From an uncultured Gammaproteobacteria bacterium (GTDB lineage Bacteria; Pseudomonadota; Gammaproteobacteria; Steroidobacterales; XN24), in assembly GCA_947259915.1 (NCBI GenBank), contig CAMYOC010000028.1, positions 207,749-271,058 on the forward strand: a DNA stretch of 63,310 nt, given 5' to 3'. The notes beneath the pieces were generated by a model. It saw nothing but the letters and a program-made list of their open reading frames with translations. It was not told where the DNA came from and did no database searches. This document shows positions 30,804 to 38,592 of the stretch, in pieces (the first letter of the stretch is position 1; each line of letters opens with the position of its first letter). Position numbers and translations under genes: made by a program.

Positions 30804-32993
30804 TTAATAGATGTTGCTCCCCTCCCGGAGAATCTTCGGCGTAACGAAGATCAGCAACTCGGCCTTCTTCGACTGGTCGGAGCTGCTCTTGAACAGGCGG
30901 CCTACGCCTGGCAAGTCACCCAGCACCGGGACCTTGTTGATGGTCTCTCTTCGCTCGGTCTCGAAGATGCCGCCCAGGACCACGGTCTCGCCGTCATTGA
31001 CCAGCACCTGGGTCACCACGGAGCGGGTATCGATACTCGGCACGAGGCCGCCTGTGGCGCTGGGTACGAACTCACCGACGGTGTCCTGATTGACCTGCAG
31101 ATCCATGATGATGCGATCATCCGGCGTCACCTGAGGCGTGACCCGCAGGCTGAGCACGGCCTTCTTGAACTGGGTCGTGGTAGCACCGCTGGACGCTGAT
31201 TCCTGATACGGAATCTCGACACCCTGCTCGATCAACGCTTCCTTCTGATTCGCGGTGATCACCCGAGGCGTCGAAATGATCTCACCACGACCCTCGGACT
31301 GTGCCGCCTGCAGCTCGAGGTCGATCAGGTAGTCCGAATCGAGGATCGCCAATGCGACGCGGCCAGCGGGATTATCGATCGGCAGATTGACGTTATATCT
31401 TTCGGCGATGCCGGGGACCGTCACCGGAGAAATCGAGCCAGTGTTGTTCAGGTTGTCGATACCGGACTGCACAATCGTGTCTGAGCCGTCGCCGGAACCG
31501 GTCACCGAGATCAGGCCATCGTTCCTTTCGTCGACATAAGTGACACCAAGTCGCACACCGAGATCGCGGCTGAAGTCGTCGTTGACCACCACGATGCGTG
31601 ACTCGATCAACACCTGCTTGACCGCGATATCCAGGGTCTGAACCAGACGGCGGATATCGACCAGCCGTTCCGACGTGTCATAGACCAGCAGCGTGTTGGT
31701 GCGCTCGTCGATACTGACCGTGCCGCGGTCCGACAGCATGGAATTGTCGCCACCGGACTGCAGCAGGTCGGCCAGATCGGAAGCCTTGGCATAGTTGACC
31801 TGGATAAAGTCGGAAACAAGCGGCGTCAGTTCCTGCAGGTCCTGACGCGCTTCCAGATCCTGTTTCTCGCGCGCGGCGATCTCGGCCGCTGGCGCAACGA
31901 TCATCACGTTGTCTATCTGACGCATATCGAGACCGCGGGTCGCCATCACGATGTCCAGCGCCTGGTCCCAGGGCACGTCGCGCAGACGCAGGGTCACGTT
32001 ACCGGTGACCGAGTCGCTGACCACCATGTTCAAGCCGCTGACCTCGGACAACAGCTGCAGCACAGCCCGGGTCTCGATGTCCTGGAAATTCAGCGTCAGG
32101 CGCTGACCCTGATAGGCCTTCCCGGTGTCGTAGACACCCAGGTCCTCGGGCTTCTCCTTGACCACGGGACGCACTTCGACCGTGAATATCTCGTCGGTCT
32201 GATACGCGAAGTGTTCGTAATCGCCGGTAGCGGCGATGATCAGCCGCGCGCCGTCGCCGGCGGTGATGCTGTCCACCGTGGTCACCGGTGTGGCGAAATC
32301 CAGCACGTCCAGTCGGCGGCGCAGATTCGTCGGCAGGTCAGTGTCGCGGAAGTCCACCACGATCTTGCCCGCTTCCTGACGCATCTCGACCACTGCAGAC
32401 GGATCGGTGAGGGACACGATCACGCGGCCGCCGCCTTCCTCGCTGCGACGGAAATCGACATCGCGGATGGCGCTGTCCACGGCGACCGGGGCCGGCGCCG
32501 GGCCGGCGGCGAACACCGGCTGTGCTTCCGCCGCGACCGCGGCGGTGCTGCCGAGACTGATAATGATGGTGTCACCATCGACGCGGGTCTGATAAGGCAC
32601 CATGTAGTCCATGTTCAGGACCACCCGGGTCCGGCCCTGAGCTTCGGCAACAGTTACGGTATCGAGTGGTCCCTGTTTGACGACGGTGCGTCGCGAGGGC
32701 AGCGCCAGTGTGGTACCCGCCAGATCCAGAGAAATCCTGGCCGGCTCATCAATGGCGAAGCTCATCGGCTCCGCGGCCGGACCGCTCATCCTCAGATAGA
32801 CCATCACCCGATCACCACCCTGTGCGGCTACGTCCACGGCCTCAAGCCGCTGGGAAGCCTCCTGGGCAGAGACAGTGGAGGCCAGCGAGAGCAGCGTAAG
32901 CGCCCCGAGCCAGCCGGCCATGTTTGAAATCCCGCGGATTCCAGTTGTCGCCCGTGCTTTGCGCATCATCCCATGTACTCCCCGAGTCTTCAT
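30804..32993 (-). CDS. pilQ: type IV pilus secretin PilQ
   Basis: This 729-aa outer-membrane secretin is the channel through which the pilus fibre exits. A signal peptide ends near STVSAQ (about residue 43). Two AMIN domains bind peptidoglycan. An STN/N0 domain follows (LTLNFQDIETRAVLQLLSEVSGLNMVVSD), then a secretin N1 domain with VNYAKASDLADLL and the secretin barrel with VPGIAERYNVNLP-type loops and EVPVLGDLP-like NKVPVLGDLPGVGRLF. It ends in ELLIFVTPKIL. The ATG overlaps the pilP stop (ATGA) and has GGGTGA upstream. Confidence 0.96.
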   Translation of the reverse strand: MKTRGVHGMMRKARATTGIRGISNMAGWLGALTLLSLASTVSAQEASQRLEAVDVAAQGGDRVMVYLRMSGPAAEPMSFAIDEPARISLDLAGTTLALPSRRTVVKQGPLDTVTVAEAQGRTRVVLNMDYMVPYQTRVDGDTIIISLGSTAAVAAEAQPVFAAGPAPAPVAVDSAIRDVDFRRSEEGGGRVIVSLTDPSAVVEMRQEAGKIVVDFRDTDLPTNLRRRLDVLDFATPVTTVDSITAGDGARLIIAATGDYEHFAYQTDEIFTVEVRPVVKEKPEDLGVYDTGKAYQGQRLTLNFQDIETRAVLQLLSEVSGLNMVVSDSVTGNVTLRLRDVPWDQALDIVMATRGLDMRQIDNVMIVAPAAEIAAREKQDLEARQDLQELTPLVSDFIQVNYAKASDLADLLQSGGDNSMLSDRGTVSIDERTNTLLVYDTSERLVDIRRLVQTLDIAVKQVLIESRIVVVNDDFSRDLGVRLGVTYVDERNDGLISVTGSGDGSDTIVQSGIDNLNNTGSISPVTVPGIAERYNVNLPIDNPAGRVALAILDSDYLIDLELQAAQSEGRGEIISTPRVITANQKEALIEQGVEIPYQESASSGATTTQFKKAVLSLRVTPQVTPDDRIIMDLQVNQDTVGEFVPSATGGLVPSIDTRSVVTQVLVNDGETVVLGGIFETERRETINKVPVLGDLPGVGRLFKSSSDQSKKAELLIFVTPKILREGSNIY

Positions 32994-33514
32994 TGCTCAC
33001 CCAGACTGATGGTGGCCGGCCGTTCCATGTAGCCGCCGATACCGTCGGGAATGATTTCGACAACCTGAATCTCAGAATCGTCAATTAAAATAATCTTGCC
33101 GTCGCTCTGGCCCACGTAGTTACCGACCGTGACCCGGTGCACCAGCGTGTCTGACGTCTGCACCAGCCCGTAGAGCTGGCCGTCCTTGCTCAAGGTCCCC
33201 ACCATGTCAAGCGTGTCCAGCGGGAACTGTTCCAGGAATTCGCGCGGCCGCGCGCTGTCAGGCCGCAGACCACCGCCGGCCGGGCCTTTCCTCTGCGCAC
33301 GCTCTGGCACAAATGGCGAACGCAGATCGAAGGCCTCGTAGGCAAACGGCTCGTGCTCTTTGATCTCTGGCAGCGGCTCGATGCGTCCACCAGGGCGTGC
33401 GTTTGTCTCGGCGATAAAACCTTCGAGGTCCGACATGTCGTTGGAACAGCCGGCCAGCATAAAGGTCGCAACGAGGGCGAGGAGAGTCGCCGTCATAATC
33501 GGACGCTGTCTCAT
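32990..33514 (-). CDS. pilP: type IV pilus inner-membrane lipoprotein PilP
   Basis: This 174-aa lipoprotein links the inner-membrane PilMNO platform to the PilQ secretin. The lipobox is MLAGC (Cys at about residue 23). The central region has FAYEAFDLRSPF, typical of PilP, and the C-terminal HR-like beta domain includes DTLDMVGTL, VTVGNYVGQSDGKI and EIIPDGIGGYMERPA. It overlaps pilO by 4 nt and pilQ by 4 nt. Confidence 0.95.
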   Translation of the reverse strand: MRQRPIMTATLLALVATFMLAGCSNDMSDLEGFIAETNARPGGRIEPLPEIKEHEPFAYEAFDLRSPFVPERAQRKGPAGGGLRPDSARPREFLEQFPLDTLDMVGTLSKDGQLYGLVQTSDTLVHRVTVGNYVGQSDGKIILIDDSEIQVVEIIPDGIGGYMERPATISLGEQ

Positions 33515-34122
33515 GACTGCTCCTCGTCGTCTTCCAGATAGCGATAGGTCTTGGCGACCAGATCCATCTGCAGTTCAGGGTCACCGTCGGAGCTGGATAA
33601 TTCCACGTCGTGGATGGTGACGATGCGTGGCAGCGCCGCGATATCACTGACGAATTTGGCCAGCTCGTGATAAGTGCCACGCAGACGGATCTTGATCGGC
33701 AGCTCCGCATAGAAATCCCTGCGGATCTCGGCGTCGGGACGGAACAGCTCTTCCTCGAGGCCCGCGCCAAGACCGGTCTGCGAGATGTCGACCAGCAAGC
33801 TGGGCACTTCGGTCTTACCGGGTAGCTGTCGCAGCATAGCGCCGAATGATTGTTCGATTTCGGCGAGCTGGATCTTGTAAGCCTCGAAATTCGCCGCCTT
33901 GCGCTGCCTGACGACAAAGACCTGGCGCAGCTCCTGCTCCTTGGCCTCCGCTTGCTCCAGCATCGGCGTCTTGTTCTTTATCGGGAAGTAGTAGACCGAT
34001 GCTGCTGTAACGATTACGAAGATAATTACCACGAACAACGCCCGGAACAGGAACGGCCATCTGCCGACATCGCTGGTGTCCAGCGCGCGGAGTTCGTCGA
34101 GGAACTTGTTCAGCCGCTCCAT
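33511..34122 (-). CDS. pilO: type IV pilus alignment protein PilO
   Basis: This 203-aa bitopic inner-membrane protein forms heterodimers with PilN. A short cytoplasmic N-terminus is followed by one membrane helix (about residues 25-47), a coiled coil (LEQAEAKEQELRQVF...) and a ferredoxin-like periplasmic domain with LPIKIRLRGTYHELAKFVSDIAALPRI, the PilO signature. It overlaps pilN by 1 nt and pilP by 4 nt. Confidence 0.95.
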   Translation of the reverse strand: MERLNKFLDELRALDTSDVGRWPFLFRALFVVIIFVIVTAASVYYFPIKNKTPMLEQAEAKEQELRQVFVVRQRKAANFEAYKIQLAEIEQSFGAMLRQLPGKTEVPSLLVDISQTGLGAGLEEELFRPDAEIRRDFYAELPIKIRLRGTYHELAKFVSDIAALPRIVTIHDVELSSSDGDPELQMDLVAKTYRYLEDDEEQS

Positions 34123-34679
34123 TACGAACCCTCCTCATCGGTAACGATCTGCTGGGCGGAGACGGTAAACCGGCTGCGCCGCGCGCCGCGATCGTCCACG
34201 GTCTCGACCACCTCGAGACCAGGCTGCTGCAGCCAGGCAGAGTTTTCGATATTCCGCATCAGCGCCGATACGCGGGTACTCGATTCTGCGATCCCCTCGA
34301 TCTCTAGCCTTTTGGCCCTCTGCTCCACCTTCTGGTAGTAGACGCCATCGGGCAGAACCCGCGCCATCTGATCGAACAGATGCACGCTGTCAGGACGGCT
34401 CCGCTGCAGCTCGTCGATGATCTCCATCCGGGCCAGCAGGCGATCTTTCTGGGTCTCGAGCTCGGCAATCTCTTTGATCAATGCATCGAGTCGCGCAATC
34501 TCCTGCTCGATGCGGGCATTGCGTTGATTCTGATAGTCGATGCGATGTTGCAGGTAGGCGCTGACCCCGAATGTCACGAGGCCACCAAGAACCACCGCGG
34601 CAACAGCCGCGATGCCGAAGTTCGTCTGACGCCGTTTGCGCTCTTGCTCGCGCCACGGCAGAAGATTAATACGAGGCAT
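34122..34679 (-). CDS. pilN: type IV pilus assembly protein PilN
   Basis: This 185-aa inner-membrane protein has the N-terminal INLLPWRE motif that docks into cytoplasmic PilM. A membrane helix (about residues 22-44), a coiled coil (ARIEQEIARLDALIKEI) and a periplasmic ferredoxin-like fold with LPDGVYYQKVEQRAKRLEIEGIAES follow. It starts 1 nt after the pilM stop and shares one base with pilO. Confidence 0.95.
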   Translation of the reverse strand: MPRINLLPWREQERKRRQTNFGIAAVAAVVLGGLVTFGVSAYLQHRIDYQNQRNARIEQEIARLDALIKEIAELETQKDRLLARMEIIDELQRSRPDSVHLFDQMARVLPDGVYYQKVEQRAKRLEIEGIAESSTRVSALMRNIENSAWLQQPGLEVVETVDDRGARRSRFTVSAQQIVTDEEGS

Positions 34680-34680
34680 G

Positions 34681-35742
34681 TCAGTCGAAACTCCTCAGGG
34701 CCAGTCCGCAGGCTGTGAGCAGTGCGGTTGCATCCTTCATCACTCCGCCAGAGCGCGCCCTGGATGAGAGCTTCATGTCGCCGAGCGGGTTGCCGATCTC
34801 GGTCGGGATACCGACGCGACTGCCGATGACATCGGCTACGCCGGGGATGTTTGCGCAGCCGCCGCAAACCAGAATCTGCTGAGGTTGCTCGCGACCGCTG
34901 CCGGAAGCGAGGAAGAATTGCAGCGAGCGGCTCACCTGCTGAGTCATGTCATCGATAAACGGATCGAGGACCTCTGGCTCGAAGTTGCTCGGCAGTCCAC
35001 CCTCTTTCTTCGCTCGACCTGCGTCTTCGAAGCTCAGGCCATAGGTGCGCATGATCTCTTCGGTCAGCTGCTGGCCACCGAAGGCAAAGTCCCGCGTGTA
35101 GATAACCTTGAGGTCGCGCAAGACGGAAAACGTAGTGCTGCTGGCGCCGAAATCGATAACGGCCACATTGTGGCTATCCCCGTGCTCGGGCATCTGGTGA
35201 CGGAGAAGCCGGCAGGCATTCTCAAGTGCGAAGGCCTCGACGTCGACGATCTGCGCCTTGAGCCCGGCCGCTTCCACTGCCGCCTGGCGCTGCTCGACGT
35301 TCTCGCTGCGGGTAGCCACCAGCAGCACGTCGAGCATGTCCGGATCGTGCTCGGATTTGCCGAGCACTTCGAAATCGTAGCTGACCTCTTCCATCGGAAA
35401 GGGAATGTACTGGTCCGCCTGCAGCTCGACCTGTCCCTCTAATTCATTGCCCGACAACGTCGCGGGCATCTGAATGACCTTTGTGATCGCGGCATCGCCG
35501 TTGATCGCAATGGCAGCCTCGCGACTGCGGGCACCCGAACGTTTGACCGCGCGGCGAATGGCCTCGCCCACGGAGTCGGGATCCACCACCGCCTTTTCGT
35601 TCACCGCGTTCTGCGGCGTCGCCTCGGCGGCATAGGATTCCACACGGAACTGGCTGCCGCTGCGGCCCAATTCGATCAGCTTGACCGACGAAGTCGTTAT
35701 GTCAAGGCCGATAAGCGGTCGACTAGACTTACCGAAAAGCAC
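34681..35742 (-). CDS. pilM: type IV pilus actin-like protein PilM
   Basis: This 353-aa cytoplasmic actin-fold ATP-binding protein recruits PilN and is the first gene of the pilMNOPQ operon. IGLDITTSSVKLIEL is phosphate-1, VAVIDFGASSTTFSVL phosphate-2 and ILVCGGCANIPGVADVI the adenosine motif. AAIAINGDAAITKVIQMP is characteristic of PilM. AAAGGAA lies just before the ATG. A promoter is close by and a c-di-GMP riboswitch lies about 290 nt further up, so second-messenger control is likely. Confidence 0.96.
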   Translation of the reverse strand: MLFGKSSRPLIGLDITTSSVKLIELGRSGSQFRVESYAAEATPQNAVNEKAVVDPDSVGEAIRRAVKRSGARSREAAIAINGDAAITKVIQMPATLSGNELEGQVELQADQYIPFPMEEVSYDFEVLGKSEHDPDMLDVLLVATRSENVEQRQAAVEAAGLKAQIVDVEAFALENACRLLRHQMPEHGDSHNVAVIDFGASSTTFSVLRDLKVIYTRDFAFGGQQLTEEIMRTYGLSFEDAGRAKKEGGLPSNFEPEVLDPFIDDMTQQVSRSLQFFLASGSGREQPQQILVCGGCANIPGVADVIGSRVGIPTEIGNPLGDMKLSSRARSGGVMKDATALLTACGLALRSFD

Positions 35743-35777
35743 ATGAATTTCCTTTTAGGTCCGCAGCTTGGCTTCGA

Positions 35778-35806
35778 AAGATAGAATAATGTCTTAGCTA
35801 ATGCAA
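35778..35806 (-). promoter_or_regulatory. candidate proximal pilM promoter
   Basis: TTGCAT (35806-35801), a 17-bp spacer and TATCTT (35783-35778) lie in an AT-rich patch just before pilM. It would give a short leader of about 30 nt that lacks the upstream riboswitch. If active, it would supply riboswitch-independent pilM transcription. Confidence 0.45.
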
Positions 35807-36033
35807 TGTTCTGTATAGCAATTCCCGAGGCTGCAAAACGTGACCGCCTTCACGCTCCAAAGATCACGTGTCTGCGGCACCCGGTCCAACCGCCGCTGCG
35901 GCTGTAGGTCGAGGTTGGGGAAGGAGCTGTCATGCGGCCTTTGATTCCGGTCGGGAGCAGCGCATTGCGCGGTGCAAAAAAGCCCGTGCGTGGCGCCCGA
36001 CTCCGTCCTCGGAGATAGTGCATGAATGTCGAT
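35807..36033 (-). other. long leader between the c-di-GMP aptamer and pilM
   Basis: About 230 nt of non-coding sequence follow the aptamer. The first 55 nt contain a short hairpin (CTCCG, AGGA loop, CGGAG at 36015-36001) and, further on, six U residues (35981-35976) preceded by a GC-rich stretch. These could be parts of the expression platform, but I cannot draw a convincing terminator. A 63-codon minus-strand ORF crosses here; it has no recognisable features and no ribosome site, so I do not call it a gene. Confidence 0.4.
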
Positions 36034-36113
36034 TCCGGCAACCCCGCTATCCTAGGCCGAAGCCCTTAGACCGGTGGCTTTGCGCCCCCACCTTTCGATG
36101 GGTTTGCCTTTTA
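36034..36113 (-). promoter_or_regulatory. cyclic-di-GMP-I (GEMM) riboswitch
   Basis: Read on the minus strand, the segment matches the GEMM-I aptamer element by element: GGCAAACC (36108-36101), a GAAA tetraloop (36096-36093), GCGCAAAGCC (36085-36076), CCGGUCUAA, a second stem with UUCG, and UAGCGGGGUUGCC (36049-36037). The order, the GNRA loop, the tetraloop receptor and the GCGGGGUU strand parallel the Vibrio cholerae Vc2 riboswitch. It points toward pilM, 290 nt downstream, and a promoter lies directly before it. Binding of c-di-GMP would presumably alter pilMNOPQ expression; the expression platform is unresolved. Confidence 0.9.
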
Positions 36114-36124
36114 CGTTCGGTGGT

Positions 36125-36153
36125 AATATGCATAAGCTACCCCGGCAAAACAA
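36125..36153 (-). promoter_or_regulatory. promoter of the riboswitch-pilMNOPQ transcript
   Basis: TTGTTT (36153-36148), a 17-bp spacer and CATATT (36130-36125) on the minus strand predict a start near 36118, only a few bases before the first conserved aptamer element. The position is right for a riboswitch transcript. It lies in the 61 bp before the PBP1A ATG, so the two divergent promoters must overlap. Confidence 0.55.
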
Positions 36154-36174
36154 GAACCTACCTCTCACTTCTGC

Positions 36175-38592
36175 ATGAAGCTCTTTCTCCGTACCCTCTA
36201 TGCTGCGGCTGCGTTGTTGCTGATTCTTGCCGCCGGCGCGGCCGTCGCGACAGCGGGCGCGTATTATTATGTGTTGCCCAGCCTGCCGGCAGTGGAGTCG
36301 CTTCAGGACATCCGTCTCCAGGTTCCGCTGCGAGTCTACACCCGTGACGGCCGGTTGTTGGCGGAATATGGCGAGATGCGCCGTATTCCGCTGTCTTTCG
36401 AGCAGATCCCACCCGTCGTGGTGGATGCGTTCCTGGCCGCCGAGGACGATCGGTTTTTCGAGCACCCCGGCGTCGATTATCAGGGCCTGGTCCGCGCCAC
36501 GGCGTCCCTGATGCTCACCGGGGAGCGTCGCCAGGGCGGCGGCACCATAACCATGCAGGTGGCGCGCAATTTCTTCCTCACCCGGGAGAAAACCATCTCG
36601 CGCAAGGTCCGGGAGATTTTTCTGGCGCTGCGTATCGAGAGCCAGATGAGCAAGCAGGAGATCATCACGCTCTATATGAACGCGATATTTCTGGGCCAGC
36701 GCGCCTATGGCGTGGGCGCGGCCGCCGAGGTGTATTTCGGCAAGACCGTAGACGCACTCAGCCTCGCCGAGGCCGCGACTATCGCAGGCCTGCCGAAAGC
36801 GCCGTCACGGGACAACCCGGTTGCCAGTCCGGAGCGGGCCGAGCAGCGCCGCGCCTATGTGCTGCGCCGGATGATGGAGACCAGCAGCATCGACAGGGCC
36901 GCGTTCGAGCAGGCCAGTACGGAACCGATGGAATCTGTGCTGCATGGCGCGACGGTGGAGACCGATGCGCCGTATGTGGGGGAGATGATCCGTCTGCAAG
37001 TGCTCGACCTCGTCGGCCCCGAGGCATACACGGCTGGATATATCGTCATCACGACGATAGACAGCCGTCTGCAGGCAGCGGCCGTGTCGGCGCTCCGCGA
37101 GGGACTGATGGAGTATGACCGGCGCCACGGCTACCGGGGTCCGCTGGCAAAAATCGACATGTCTGGTGCGGACGAGACAGAGGATTTTGCCGAGCAGCTG
37201 GCGGGTTATCGTGCCGGACCGGGCATGCAGATCGGCCTGGTCACCGCGGTCGAGGGCCAGACCGCGCAAGTCCTGGTGCCCGGTCACGGCACCCTGGTCT
37301 TGCCTTGGGAGGGTCTTGACTGGGCCCGTGCGTTTATCGATGACAACACGCGCGGCCCGGAGCCGGCGGTGGCCGCGGACATCCTGTCGGTGGGCGATCT
37401 GATCGAGGTCAGCCCGATGGAGAACGGTGACTGGCGGCTGAGCCAGGCGCCGACGGTACAGGGCGCAATTGTCGCCGTGGACCCGATCGATGGCGCCGTG
37501 GCCGCGCTGAGCGGCGGTTTCGACTTCGAGGCCAGCAAATACAATCGGGCGGCCCAGGCCCGGCGTCAGCCGGGGTCCTCTTTCAAACCCTTTATCTACT
37601 CGGCCGCGCTGGAAAACGGCTTTACCACCGCGACGATGGTCAACGATGCGCCGGTCGTATTCAGGGATGATCAGCTGGAAAGCACCTGGCGCCCGGAAAA
37701 CTACAGTCAGCGTTTTTATGGTCCGACCCGGCTGCGCGAAGCGCTGGTGCGATCGCGCAATCTGGTTTCGATCCGCGTACTCCGCTCGATGGGTGTGGGT
37801 AACGCCATCGACCACATCACCGCGTTCGGCATCCCCGAGTCCGCCATGCCCCGTGATCTGTCATTGGCACTGGGCAGCGTGACCCTGACGCCGATGGAAC
37901 TGGCCGACGCCTACACGGTATTCGCTAACGGCGGCTTCAGCGTCGACACCTATCTGATCGACCGCATCGTGGATGCCGAGGGCGCAGCGATCATGCAGTC
38001 CGATCCACTGGTCGCATGCGCATCCTGCACCGACGCCGAGCAGGCCGCCGCTGAGGGTCGGGTGGGCCGGCCCGCGGTGCAAGACGAGACGATGACCATC
38101 GACTATGCGCCGGCGGCCATAAGCCGACAAAATGCCTATCTGGTTGCGGACATGATGCGGGACGTGATCCGTCGCGGCACCGGCAGACGCGCCATGGCCC
38201 TGGGTCGGGGCGACCTGTCCGGCAAGACCGGCACCACCAACGATCGTCGCGACGCCTGGTTCAGCGGCTTCAATGGCGATCTTGTGGCGACGGCCTGGGT
38301 GGGTTTCGATCAGGAGCGGCCACTGGGTGCCCGCGAAGAGGGTGGCCGCACCGCCCTGCCGATCTGGGTCAAGTTTATGGGCCAGGCCCTGGCCGGCGCC
38401 CCGGAGAGCCCGCCGCCGAAACCGTCGGGTCTGGTCACGGTACGCGTCTCCTCCAGCACCGGTCTGCTCGCGCGCAGCGCGGACGTGGACGCCATATTCG
38501 AGACCTTCCGGGCGGATCAGGTACCGCCGCCGGGAGAAGACGACAACGGATCGCCCTTCGGCCCGTCCGAGGACGAAGAGCCGATATTCTAG
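36175..38592 (+). CDS. mrcA: bifunctional penicillin-binding protein 1A
   Basis: This 805-aa class A PBP polymerises and cross-links peptidoglycan in the periplasm. A membrane anchor spans residues about 8-30. The GT51 glycosyltransferase has catalytic Glu90 in AAEDDRFFEHPG, GGTITMQVARN and the KVREIFLALRIE region. An OB-like insert follows. The transpeptidase has S468-x-x-K (GSSFKPF), S527-R-N and K684-T-G-T. Length is slightly below E. coli PBP1A (850). No clear ribosome site precedes the ATG. Divergent pilM next to the PBP1A gene is a common gammaproteobacterial order. Confidence 0.95.
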   Translation: MKLFLRTLYAAAALLLILAAGAAVATAGAYYYVLPSLPAVESLQDIRLQVPLRVYTRDGRLLAEYGEMRRIPLSFEQIPPVVVDAFLAAEDDRFFEHPGVDYQGLVRATASLMLTGERRQGGGTITMQVARNFFLTREKTISRKVREIFLALRIESQMSKQEIITLYMNAIFLGQRAYGVGAAAEVYFGKTVDALSLAEAATIAGLPKAPSRDNPVASPERAEQRRAYVLRRMMETSSIDRAAFEQASTEPMESVLHGATVETDAPYVGEMIRLQVLDLVGPEAYTAGYIVITTIDSRLQAAAVSALREGLMEYDRRHGYRGPLAKIDMSGADETEDFAEQLAGYRAGPGMQIGLVTAVEGQTAQVLVPGHGTLVLPWEGLDWARAFIDDNTRGPEPAVAADILSVGDLIEVSPMENGDWRLSQAPTVQGAIVAVDPIDGAVAALSGGFDFEASKYNRAAQARRQPGSSFKPFIYSAALENGFTTATMVNDAPVVFRDDQLESTWRPENYSQRFYGPTRLREALVRSRNLVSIRVLRSMGVGNAIDHITAFGIPESAMPRDLSLALGSVTLTPMELADAYTVFANGGFSVDTYLIDRIVDAEGAAIMQSDPLVACASCTDAEQAAAEGRVGRPAVQDETMTIDYAPAAISRQNAYLVADMMRDVIRRGTGRRAMALGRGDLSGKTGTTNDRRDAWFSGFNGDLVATAWVGFDQERPLGAREEGGRTALPIWVKFMGQALAGAPESPPPKPSGLVTVRVSSSTGLLARSADVDAIFETFRADQVPPPGEDDNGSPFGPSEDEEPIF

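Follow-up and report, generated by a model that had tools for sequence, protein, structure and literature searches.

The DNA analysed here, hereafter the window, is a stretch of 63,310 nucleotides from an uncultured gammaproteobacterium of the order Steroidobacterales. Its minus strand carries pilM, pilN, pilO, pilP and pilQ, all confirmed by Pfam and all downstream of a riboswitch aptamer on the same strand. From the 3' end of the aptamer to the GTG codon of pilM (35742) there are 291 nt, so that the orientation toward pilM and the distance of about 290 nt given by an earlier, sequence-only reading of this DNA are confirmed. On the other side of the aptamer lies a divergent gene for a penicillin-binding protein, whose match to the MrcA model NF008643 is below the cut-off of that model. 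The features to which the text refers are the following.

30804–32993, minus strand: pilQ, secretin (TIGR02515, 510 bits; PF00263)
32990–33514, minus strand: pilP (PF04351)
33511–34122, minus strand: pilO (PF04350)
34122–34679, minus strand: pilN (PF05137)
34681–35742, minus strand: pilM (TIGR01175, 373 bits; PF11104)
35748–35756, minus strand: Shine-Dalgarno-like sequence of pilM, AAAAGGAAA
35778–35806, minus strand: promoter-like element P3, TTGCAT-N17-TATCTT
35812–35820, minus strand: extended -10 element of the predicted promoter P2, TGC-TATACA
35840–35853, minus strand: CRP-type palindrome GTGA-AGGCGG-TCAC, centred at -41.5 of predicted P2
35866–35921, minus strand: putative anti-aptamer strand, whose partners in the unconstrained fold are the aptamer's P3 core, tail and GGCA
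35900–35934, minus strand: C-rich, G-poor stretch, a possible Rho loading site
35976–36003, minus strand: weak terminator-like hairpin (-8.2 kcal/mol by script), followed by six T
36034–36118, minus strand: c-di-GMP-I riboswitch aptamer (RF01051), with covariation
36125–36130, minus strand: -10 element of promoter box P1, CATATT, inside TTATGCATATT; a GCAT..T box is found in 53/53 aptamer leaders
36148–36153, minus strand: -35 element of P1, TTGTTT, which falls, without gaps, on TTGCCT-like letters when the 53 leaders are aligned on P1
36175–38592, plus strand: divergent mrcA-like penicillin-binding protein gene of the PBP1A family (TIGR02074, 570 bits, over cut-off)

The aptamer, its occurrence and its predicted ligand

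In a cmscan search with Rfam, c-di-GMP-I (RF01051) is the sole above-threshold match in the window. It covers 36118–36034 on the minus strand and model positions 1–87 completely, with 86.2 bits against a gathering score of 35 and an E-value of 1.2e-15. The sequence-only reading had named a c-di-GMP-I (GEMM-I) aptamer on this strand from its conserved blocks and had proposed the covariance-model search as a check. The search upholds that call at full length, and the consensus blocks, including the GAAA tetraloop, are all found. In an alignment of 19 aptamers from the window's genome and its relatives, the P2 and P3 stems of the aptamer covary, with nine pairs altered on both sides, a number that none of 500 shuffles reaches. 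The RNA is a member of the known c-di-GMP-I family.

The survey of aptamer occurrence began with 196 genomes from the order, 162 of which proved to have pilM. Upstream DNA was examined at 130 of these 162 loci, while the remaining 32 genomes, with a distant or partial pilM, a pilM near a contig end or a pilM that was not taken, were left out; the survey covers 12 families and is without f3, f12, f13 and f14. A covariance model (R1) was made from the 19 aptamers, 12 of which lie upstream of pilM and are all among its 53 detections there. It found a same-strand aptamer upstream of pilM at 53 of the 130 loci, in 6 of the 12 families. Among the 128 loci whose upstream DNA reaches 450 nt or more, the aptamer is present at 4/7 loci of the window's own family (f1), 1/4 of f4, 6/6 of f6, 5/5 of f10, 8/29 of f11 and 29/32 of f15, and at none of those of f2 (4 loci), f5 (3), f7 (31), f8 (1), f9 (2) and f16 (4). 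Thus, 75 of the 128 pilM loci have no detectable aptamer, which implies that the riboswitch is not needed for pilM expression. Woeseiaceae and Steroidobacteraceae are among the named relatives. Rfam cut-offs were passed by 38 of the 41 positives not used in the model (36 with RF01051 and 2 with RF03167, c-di-GMP-I-GGC); three low-scoring positives (G077, G146 and G064) are under them.

At 36086–36084 the window has GGC in place of the consensus GAC, ahead of GCAAA, and this step occurs in 11 of the 50 readable pilM leaders, namely the window and 10 leaders of f15. Two other leaders have their best Rfam score with the sister family c-di-GMP-I-GGC, to which the window's GGC step may or may not be related.

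Of 143 genomes sampled from the class, one per family as listed, 25 had the aptamer anywhere and 110 had pilM. Comparison of contigs and positions placed the aptamer beside pilM in the window's own genome only; the count was 0 in the 141 that belong to other orders (roughly one genome per family), under stricter filters with which weak matches may be lost. Since this adjacency is confined to the window's genome in the class sample, the pairing of aptamer and pilM seems, within the class, to be a peculiarity of this order that is independent of the Geobacter case.

With regard to the ligand, letters G12, A39 and C81 are invariant in the 19 aligned aptamers and are equivalent to the pocket letters G20, A47 and C92 of Vc2, where the number of the last is presumed. 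GG stands at the equivalents of Vc2 19–20 in 53/53 leaders, the window included, and AAA at the pocket in all 50 readable of the 53. The selectivity position, equivalent to Vc2 G20, is therefore G and not A in the window and in 53/53 leaders. As a rule, riboswitches of the cGAMP class have A for G at this position. The Vc2 pocket positions through A47 are those in passages of one report (PMC11218506), and parts of another (PMC6274999) deal with a G20A mutant and with A14 of a cGAMP riboswitch. The window's genome encodes 25 GGDEF domains. From its pocket letters, c-di-GMP rather than cGAMP is the likely ligand of the aptamer. A pilM-linked GEMM riboswitch of Geobacter metallireducens senses cGAMP, as described in sections of PMC9262584, but the same specificity (GEMM-Ib) is scarcely credible here, given the G at the selectivity position in the window and the 53 leaders and the score of the window aptamer with RF01051.

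Predicted promoters on either side of the aptamer

The element TTGTTT-N17-CATATT spans 36153–36125 on the minus strand and places a predicted start at about 36118, the 5' edge of the aptamer. This box, P1, precedes 53/53 pilM-linked aptamers. Seventeen nucleotides ahead of the -10 element, its TTGCC-like -35 element has T, T and G in 50, 51 and 50 of the 53 leaders, and TTATG stands ahead of CATATT in their alignment. Because the search pattern itself fixed GCAT and the last T, only the -35 and upstream letters count as independent evidence. A plain sigma-70 scan of 35650–36250 returned zero promoters; it needs four of six letters per hexamer, and TTGTTT has three. The support for P1 as a predicted promoter is its conservation. 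The sequence-only reading had given the riboswitch a promoter of its own, and this stands as a promoter-like box, with the letters in place and conserved before 53 aptamers.

A P1 matrix trained on the same 53 aptamer loci beats the 99% level of single-base shuffles in 52/53 of them, its own training set, and in 23/77 aptamer-less loci. The persistence of the box in the latter suggests that P1 is useful without the riboswitch. As P1 boxes occur without an aptamer, the simplest reading suggested is that the aptamer was lost repeatedly while its promoter stayed in place, individual relics being judged by eye. On a quick tree of 80 PilM proteins, 46 of them with an upstream aptamer (45 named loci and the window), the aptamer label can be explained by 7 changes, where shuffled labels need 26 on average, and well-supported branches alone force 3; the 80 named loci overlap the genomes of the pilM survey, and the two sets are not independent. 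One locus with too little upstream DNA (L136) was left out of the tree. At three loci (G118, G020 and G179), the DNA past the P1 box resembles a broken aptamer by eye and gives no score with R1 or Rfam. Another (G153) has a weak match to the model (19.3 bits, E 0.019) and none in Rfam, and a named locus (L149) matches weakly at 22.9 bits. With intact, weak and missing aptamers before one gene, these leaders offer a good setting in which to ask how a riboswitch disappears and its promoter persists.

Two observations concern the side of P1 that faces the penicillin-binding protein gene. In most relatives, the P1 -10 region (36135–36125 in the window), ATTATGCATATT, reads as a CATAAT -10 element on the opposite strand, toward mrcA, and could possibly form a back-to-back P1/mrcA promoter; the window has CTTATG, which gives CATAAG on the mrcA-facing strand. 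A divergent mrcA promoter with its -35 element inside the aptamer was rejected, since the spacing is too long in most families. In addition, the anti-ponA RNA asponA (RF02812) matches at L054, L161, L068, L189 and seven more of 20 loci scanned. These matches are under the gathering score and near the divergent gene, and they probably reflect coding similarity.

Between aptamer and pilM lies a second arrangement, P2. The position of the CRP site relative to the -10 element is fixed by a geometric rule in class II CRP promoters. The window has this layout, with GTGA-N6-TCAC at -41.5 and an extended -10 element: the centre of the palindrome is exactly 29 nt from the start of TATACA, which is preceded by TGC. 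An exact GTGA-N6-TCAC within 200 nt of pilM was found at 87/130 loci, against 15/6500 single-base shuffles, and is divided between 34/53 aptamer-bearing and 53/77 aptamer-less loci. The palindrome together with a TGn-TA hexamer at its centre +29 (±1) was found at 70/130 loci and in 0/6500 such shuffles, with a division of 24/53 and 46/77. A CRP equivalog (303.7 bits; cut-off 266) and two class III cyclase domains are encoded in the window's genome, in which no match to a class I adenylate cyclase was found. Just downstream of P2, the pattern TTGC[AG]T-N17-TATC[TA]T, or P3, is present at 6/7 loci of f1, 4/5 of f10 and 2/4 of f4, and at none in the nine other families.

Judged from this layout, pilM very likely has a predicted promoter that leaves the aptamer untranscribed. 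Because P2 sits between aptamer and pilM, the riboswitch probably gates P1 transcripts only. The sequence-only reading had put pilMNOPQ as a whole under riboswitch control. The riboswitch, its promoter-like box and the orientation toward these genes are supported; a response of the whole operon is too simple, as transcripts from P2 and P3 would bypass the aptamer.

The same elements could be read differently: the P1 transcript might terminate ahead of P2 as a free-standing riboswitch RNA that hardly affects pilM, if at all, and expression would then depend on P2 and P3 alone. The proximal promoter elements keep their spacing with or without an aptamer, the aptamer is missing in several lineages, and runs of at least four T occur between aptamer and P2 in 34/53 leaders, against 15.1 expected from single-base shuffles. 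Such runs need not end the aptamer RNA, since aptamer-less leaders are T-rich too (52/76). Moreover, the aptamer stays 197–354 nt from pilM in six families, which suggests a role in cis. A riboswitch without effect on pilM is rather unlikely. It is less probable still that P1 polymerases gated by the riboswitch act by transcriptional interference, displacing CRP or polymerase at P2; P1 does lie upstream of P2 on the same strand, but nothing in the sequence distinguishes interference from plain read-through.

Leader folding and the possible direction of control

How the ligand might act was approached by folding aptamer plus leader twice, once freely and once with the aptamer kept intact; the energy difference between the two best folds is termed the gap. 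With leaders of up to 150 nt and 40 dinucleotide shuffles, the gap had P ≤ 0.05 in 22/51 leaders (f4 1/1, f6 3/6, f10 3/5, f11 2/8, f15 13/27, f1 0/4), related leaders not being independent trials. Against leaders swapped in from other families, the same level was reached in 13/51. Two of the 53 leaders (G146 and G064) were dropped because their aptamer letters could not be placed. For leader lengths of +160 to +180 nt, the gap in the window ranges from -17.2 to -14.5 kcal/mol, with P 0.02 (100 dinucleotide shuffles), whereas P is 0.30–0.71 at +60 to +150 and 0.06 at +200. The signal is thus seen at 3/8 lengths, and the window's own P is modest because eight were tried. The three other aptamer-bearing f1 leaders show no anti-aptamer signal.

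The ligand-bound aptamer and the downstream anti-aptamer fold would then be mutually exclusive, an exclusion to which these statistics lend partial support, and by that exclusion the ligand would change elongation through the leader of about 180 nt.

Several other devices were considered and set aside. A conserved intrinsic terminator is not borne out, as a hairpin plus U tract by a loose criterion is found in 29/53 leaders at scattered places, some inside P2. The hairpin at 35976–36003 is absent at this place in other f1 leaders, and a consensus terminator scan was silent there. Complementarity of single aptamer segments to the leader was also rejected: the mean shift is greatest for the P3 segment (-0.8 kcal/mol), yet only 3/51 leaders have P ≤ 0.05 there, and the other five of the six segments reach this level in 3 to 5 of 51. 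For the aptamer tail, complementarity to the leader had P < 0.05 in 0/53, and P ≤ 0.05 in 3/51 in a second test. Pairing to the aptamer just before U tracts is no more frequent than at random positions (30/47 against 567/1060; p 0.18), and neither this comparison nor the duplex energies support a Geobacter-type terminator with an aptamer arm as a general feature. In f10 leaders, CCGGCA is followed by four U in three of five and by three U in two; this arrangement may be a private case. Finally, masking of the ribosome site by the aptamer was set aside, the Shine-Dalgarno sequence of pilM being about 280 nt away and present on P2 transcripts too.

For the direction of the switch, ON and OFF are close in probability. 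In an ON switch, c-di-GMP would hold the aptamer and so keep a terminating fold from forming, the way the pilM riboswitch of Geobacter works; the known pilM case being ON, we lean slightly to this version, at about even odds. An OFF switch is somewhat doubtful, and one form of it, which we regard as tentative, would use the C-rich anti-aptamer strand (35934–35900): c-di-GMP binding would free this strand, Rho would load on it and P1 transcripts would stop before pilM. In the fold that keeps the aptamer, 35924–35904 is an unpaired run of 21 nt, while 18/35 nt of the stretch pair with the aptamer in the free fold. Sections of the report on tfoY also provide a precedent for an OFF switch, one that works by translation (PMC7371385). 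The excess of C over G is higher in aptamer-bearing leaders (53 leaders, median +0.026) than in the 49 measurable of the 77 aptamer-less leaders (median -0.034), and YC steps are more frequent in the former, but both the relatedness of the leaders and their complementarity to the G-rich tail of the aptamer confound this comparison. In addition, the window leader's own C excess is not significant (P 0.14), f10 leaders are without it, and the strand would be freed by ligand binding under any anti-aptamer model. Composition was therefore rejected as evidence of a Rho signal, and Rho is kept as a rival explanation only.

Proposed control of pilMNOPQ and comparison with known systems

The window holds the aptamer, its place before pilM, the P1 box, and the CRP palindrome with its extended -10 element, and the same layout is found in relatives. 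The reading that we prefer, with a probability of about 0.72, is that a c-di-GMP-I riboswitch on the P1 transcript likely sets the flow from P1 into pilMNOPQ, while a predicted CRP-type promoter would bypass it. Transcription would start at the conserved P1 box, the riboswitch would sit on that transcript, and it would decide how many P1 transcripts reach pilMNOPQ. The operon for the alignment complex and the secretin would thereby have two inputs, with cAMP-CRP at P2 as the basal one and c-di-GMP at P1 as the modulating one.

A broader proposal, for which we see as much chance of being right as wrong, is that this two-messenger control of type IV pilus assembly is ancestral and order-wide among relatives of Steroidobacteraceae and Woeseiaceae, most of them uncultured. 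In these, pilMNOPQ would be served by two promoters in series, one with a c-di-GMP riboswitch and one under cAMP-CRP, an arrangement acquired independently of the cGAMP version of Geobacter. Its anti-aptamer leader would still be evolving, and the riboswitch would have been lost several times independently while the promoters remained. Most known control of type IV pili by c-di-GMP acts on proteins such as PilB, PilZ and FimX. Here, in a widely distributed group represented mainly by metagenomes, c-di-GMP would target the transcript for the secretin and the alignment complex, and cAMP-CRP would add a further input. For Geobacter, regulation of pilM by a cGAMP-sensing GEMM RNA has already been published; in the mainly open-access literature, no c-di-GMP-I riboswitch at pilM in Gammaproteobacteria was found among the matches listed.

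The window's genome has 11 RF01051 riboswitches, and the ten other than that of pilM make the latter one member of a riboswitch regulon. Some of these loci deserve mention in their own right. A c-di-GMP-I riboswitch of 77.2 bits (L013, G000:C26:52165-52250), with a P1-like GCATATT box ahead of it, precedes a peptidase M23 gene, with secA next in line; c-di-GMP control beside secA would be unusual. Tandem aptamers about 140 nt apart (L010, G000:C50:140106-140202 and 140346-140440) precede a reading frame without a Pfam match. Three other riboswitch-led frames encode a spore coat U domain protein (L016), a long protein in which DUF11 and SdrD-B-like domains occur (L014), and a protein that matches hydrazine-synthase-alpha-like and CXXCH models (L009). 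At one more riboswitch (L012, G000:C41:37114-37197), a GGDEF domain is encoded on the same strand some 240 nt upstream.

Compared with its own family, RF01051, the window aptamer has the same sequence, fold, GAAA tetraloop, pocket letters and covarying stems, and its core differs little, with GGC for GAC before GCAAA. For the arrangement as a whole, the tfoY gene of Vibrio cholerae offers a likeness: in the part of the report that treats its promoters, P1 and P2 transcripts carry Vc2 and P3 and P4 transcripts do not (PMC7371385), so that, as in the window, the distal transcripts have the aptamer and the proximal promoters bypass it. The proximal promoters of tfoY use VpsR and Vc2 blocks translation, according to the same passages, whereas the window has a CRP-type site in the proximal position, and its ribosome site is downstream of P2. 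Similarly, the c-di-GMP-I riboswitch Vc1 and CRP act on one gene, gbpA of V. cholerae (PMC4545359; PMC11218506); CRP acts at the gbpA promoter, and the relevant passages mention no separate CRP-type promoter downstream of the riboswitch. Bc1 of Bacillus thuringiensis resembles the window in combining a c-di-GMP-I aptamer with a long expression platform, but has two intrinsic terminators and, per its authors in the sections devoted to it, no alternative promoter in the leader (PMC11218506).

The closest parallel in terms of the genes controlled is Geobacter, in which a GEMM fold precedes the same operon (passages of PMC9262584 and PMC6456294). The GEMM-Ib riboswitch at pilM of G. metallireducens is described there as a cGAMP sensor and an ON switch (PMC9262584), and deletion of gacA, which encodes the cGAMP synthase GacA, lowered genes of the pilMNOP operon 2–3 fold in G. 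sulfurreducens (PMC6456294). By the same account, the terminator fold of Geobacter takes up the ligand-pairing C of the aptamer (PMC9262584); no such terminator was found in the window leader. The window also differs from Geobacter in having G at the selectivity position, a leader of about 290 nt, and a CRP-type promoter in between.
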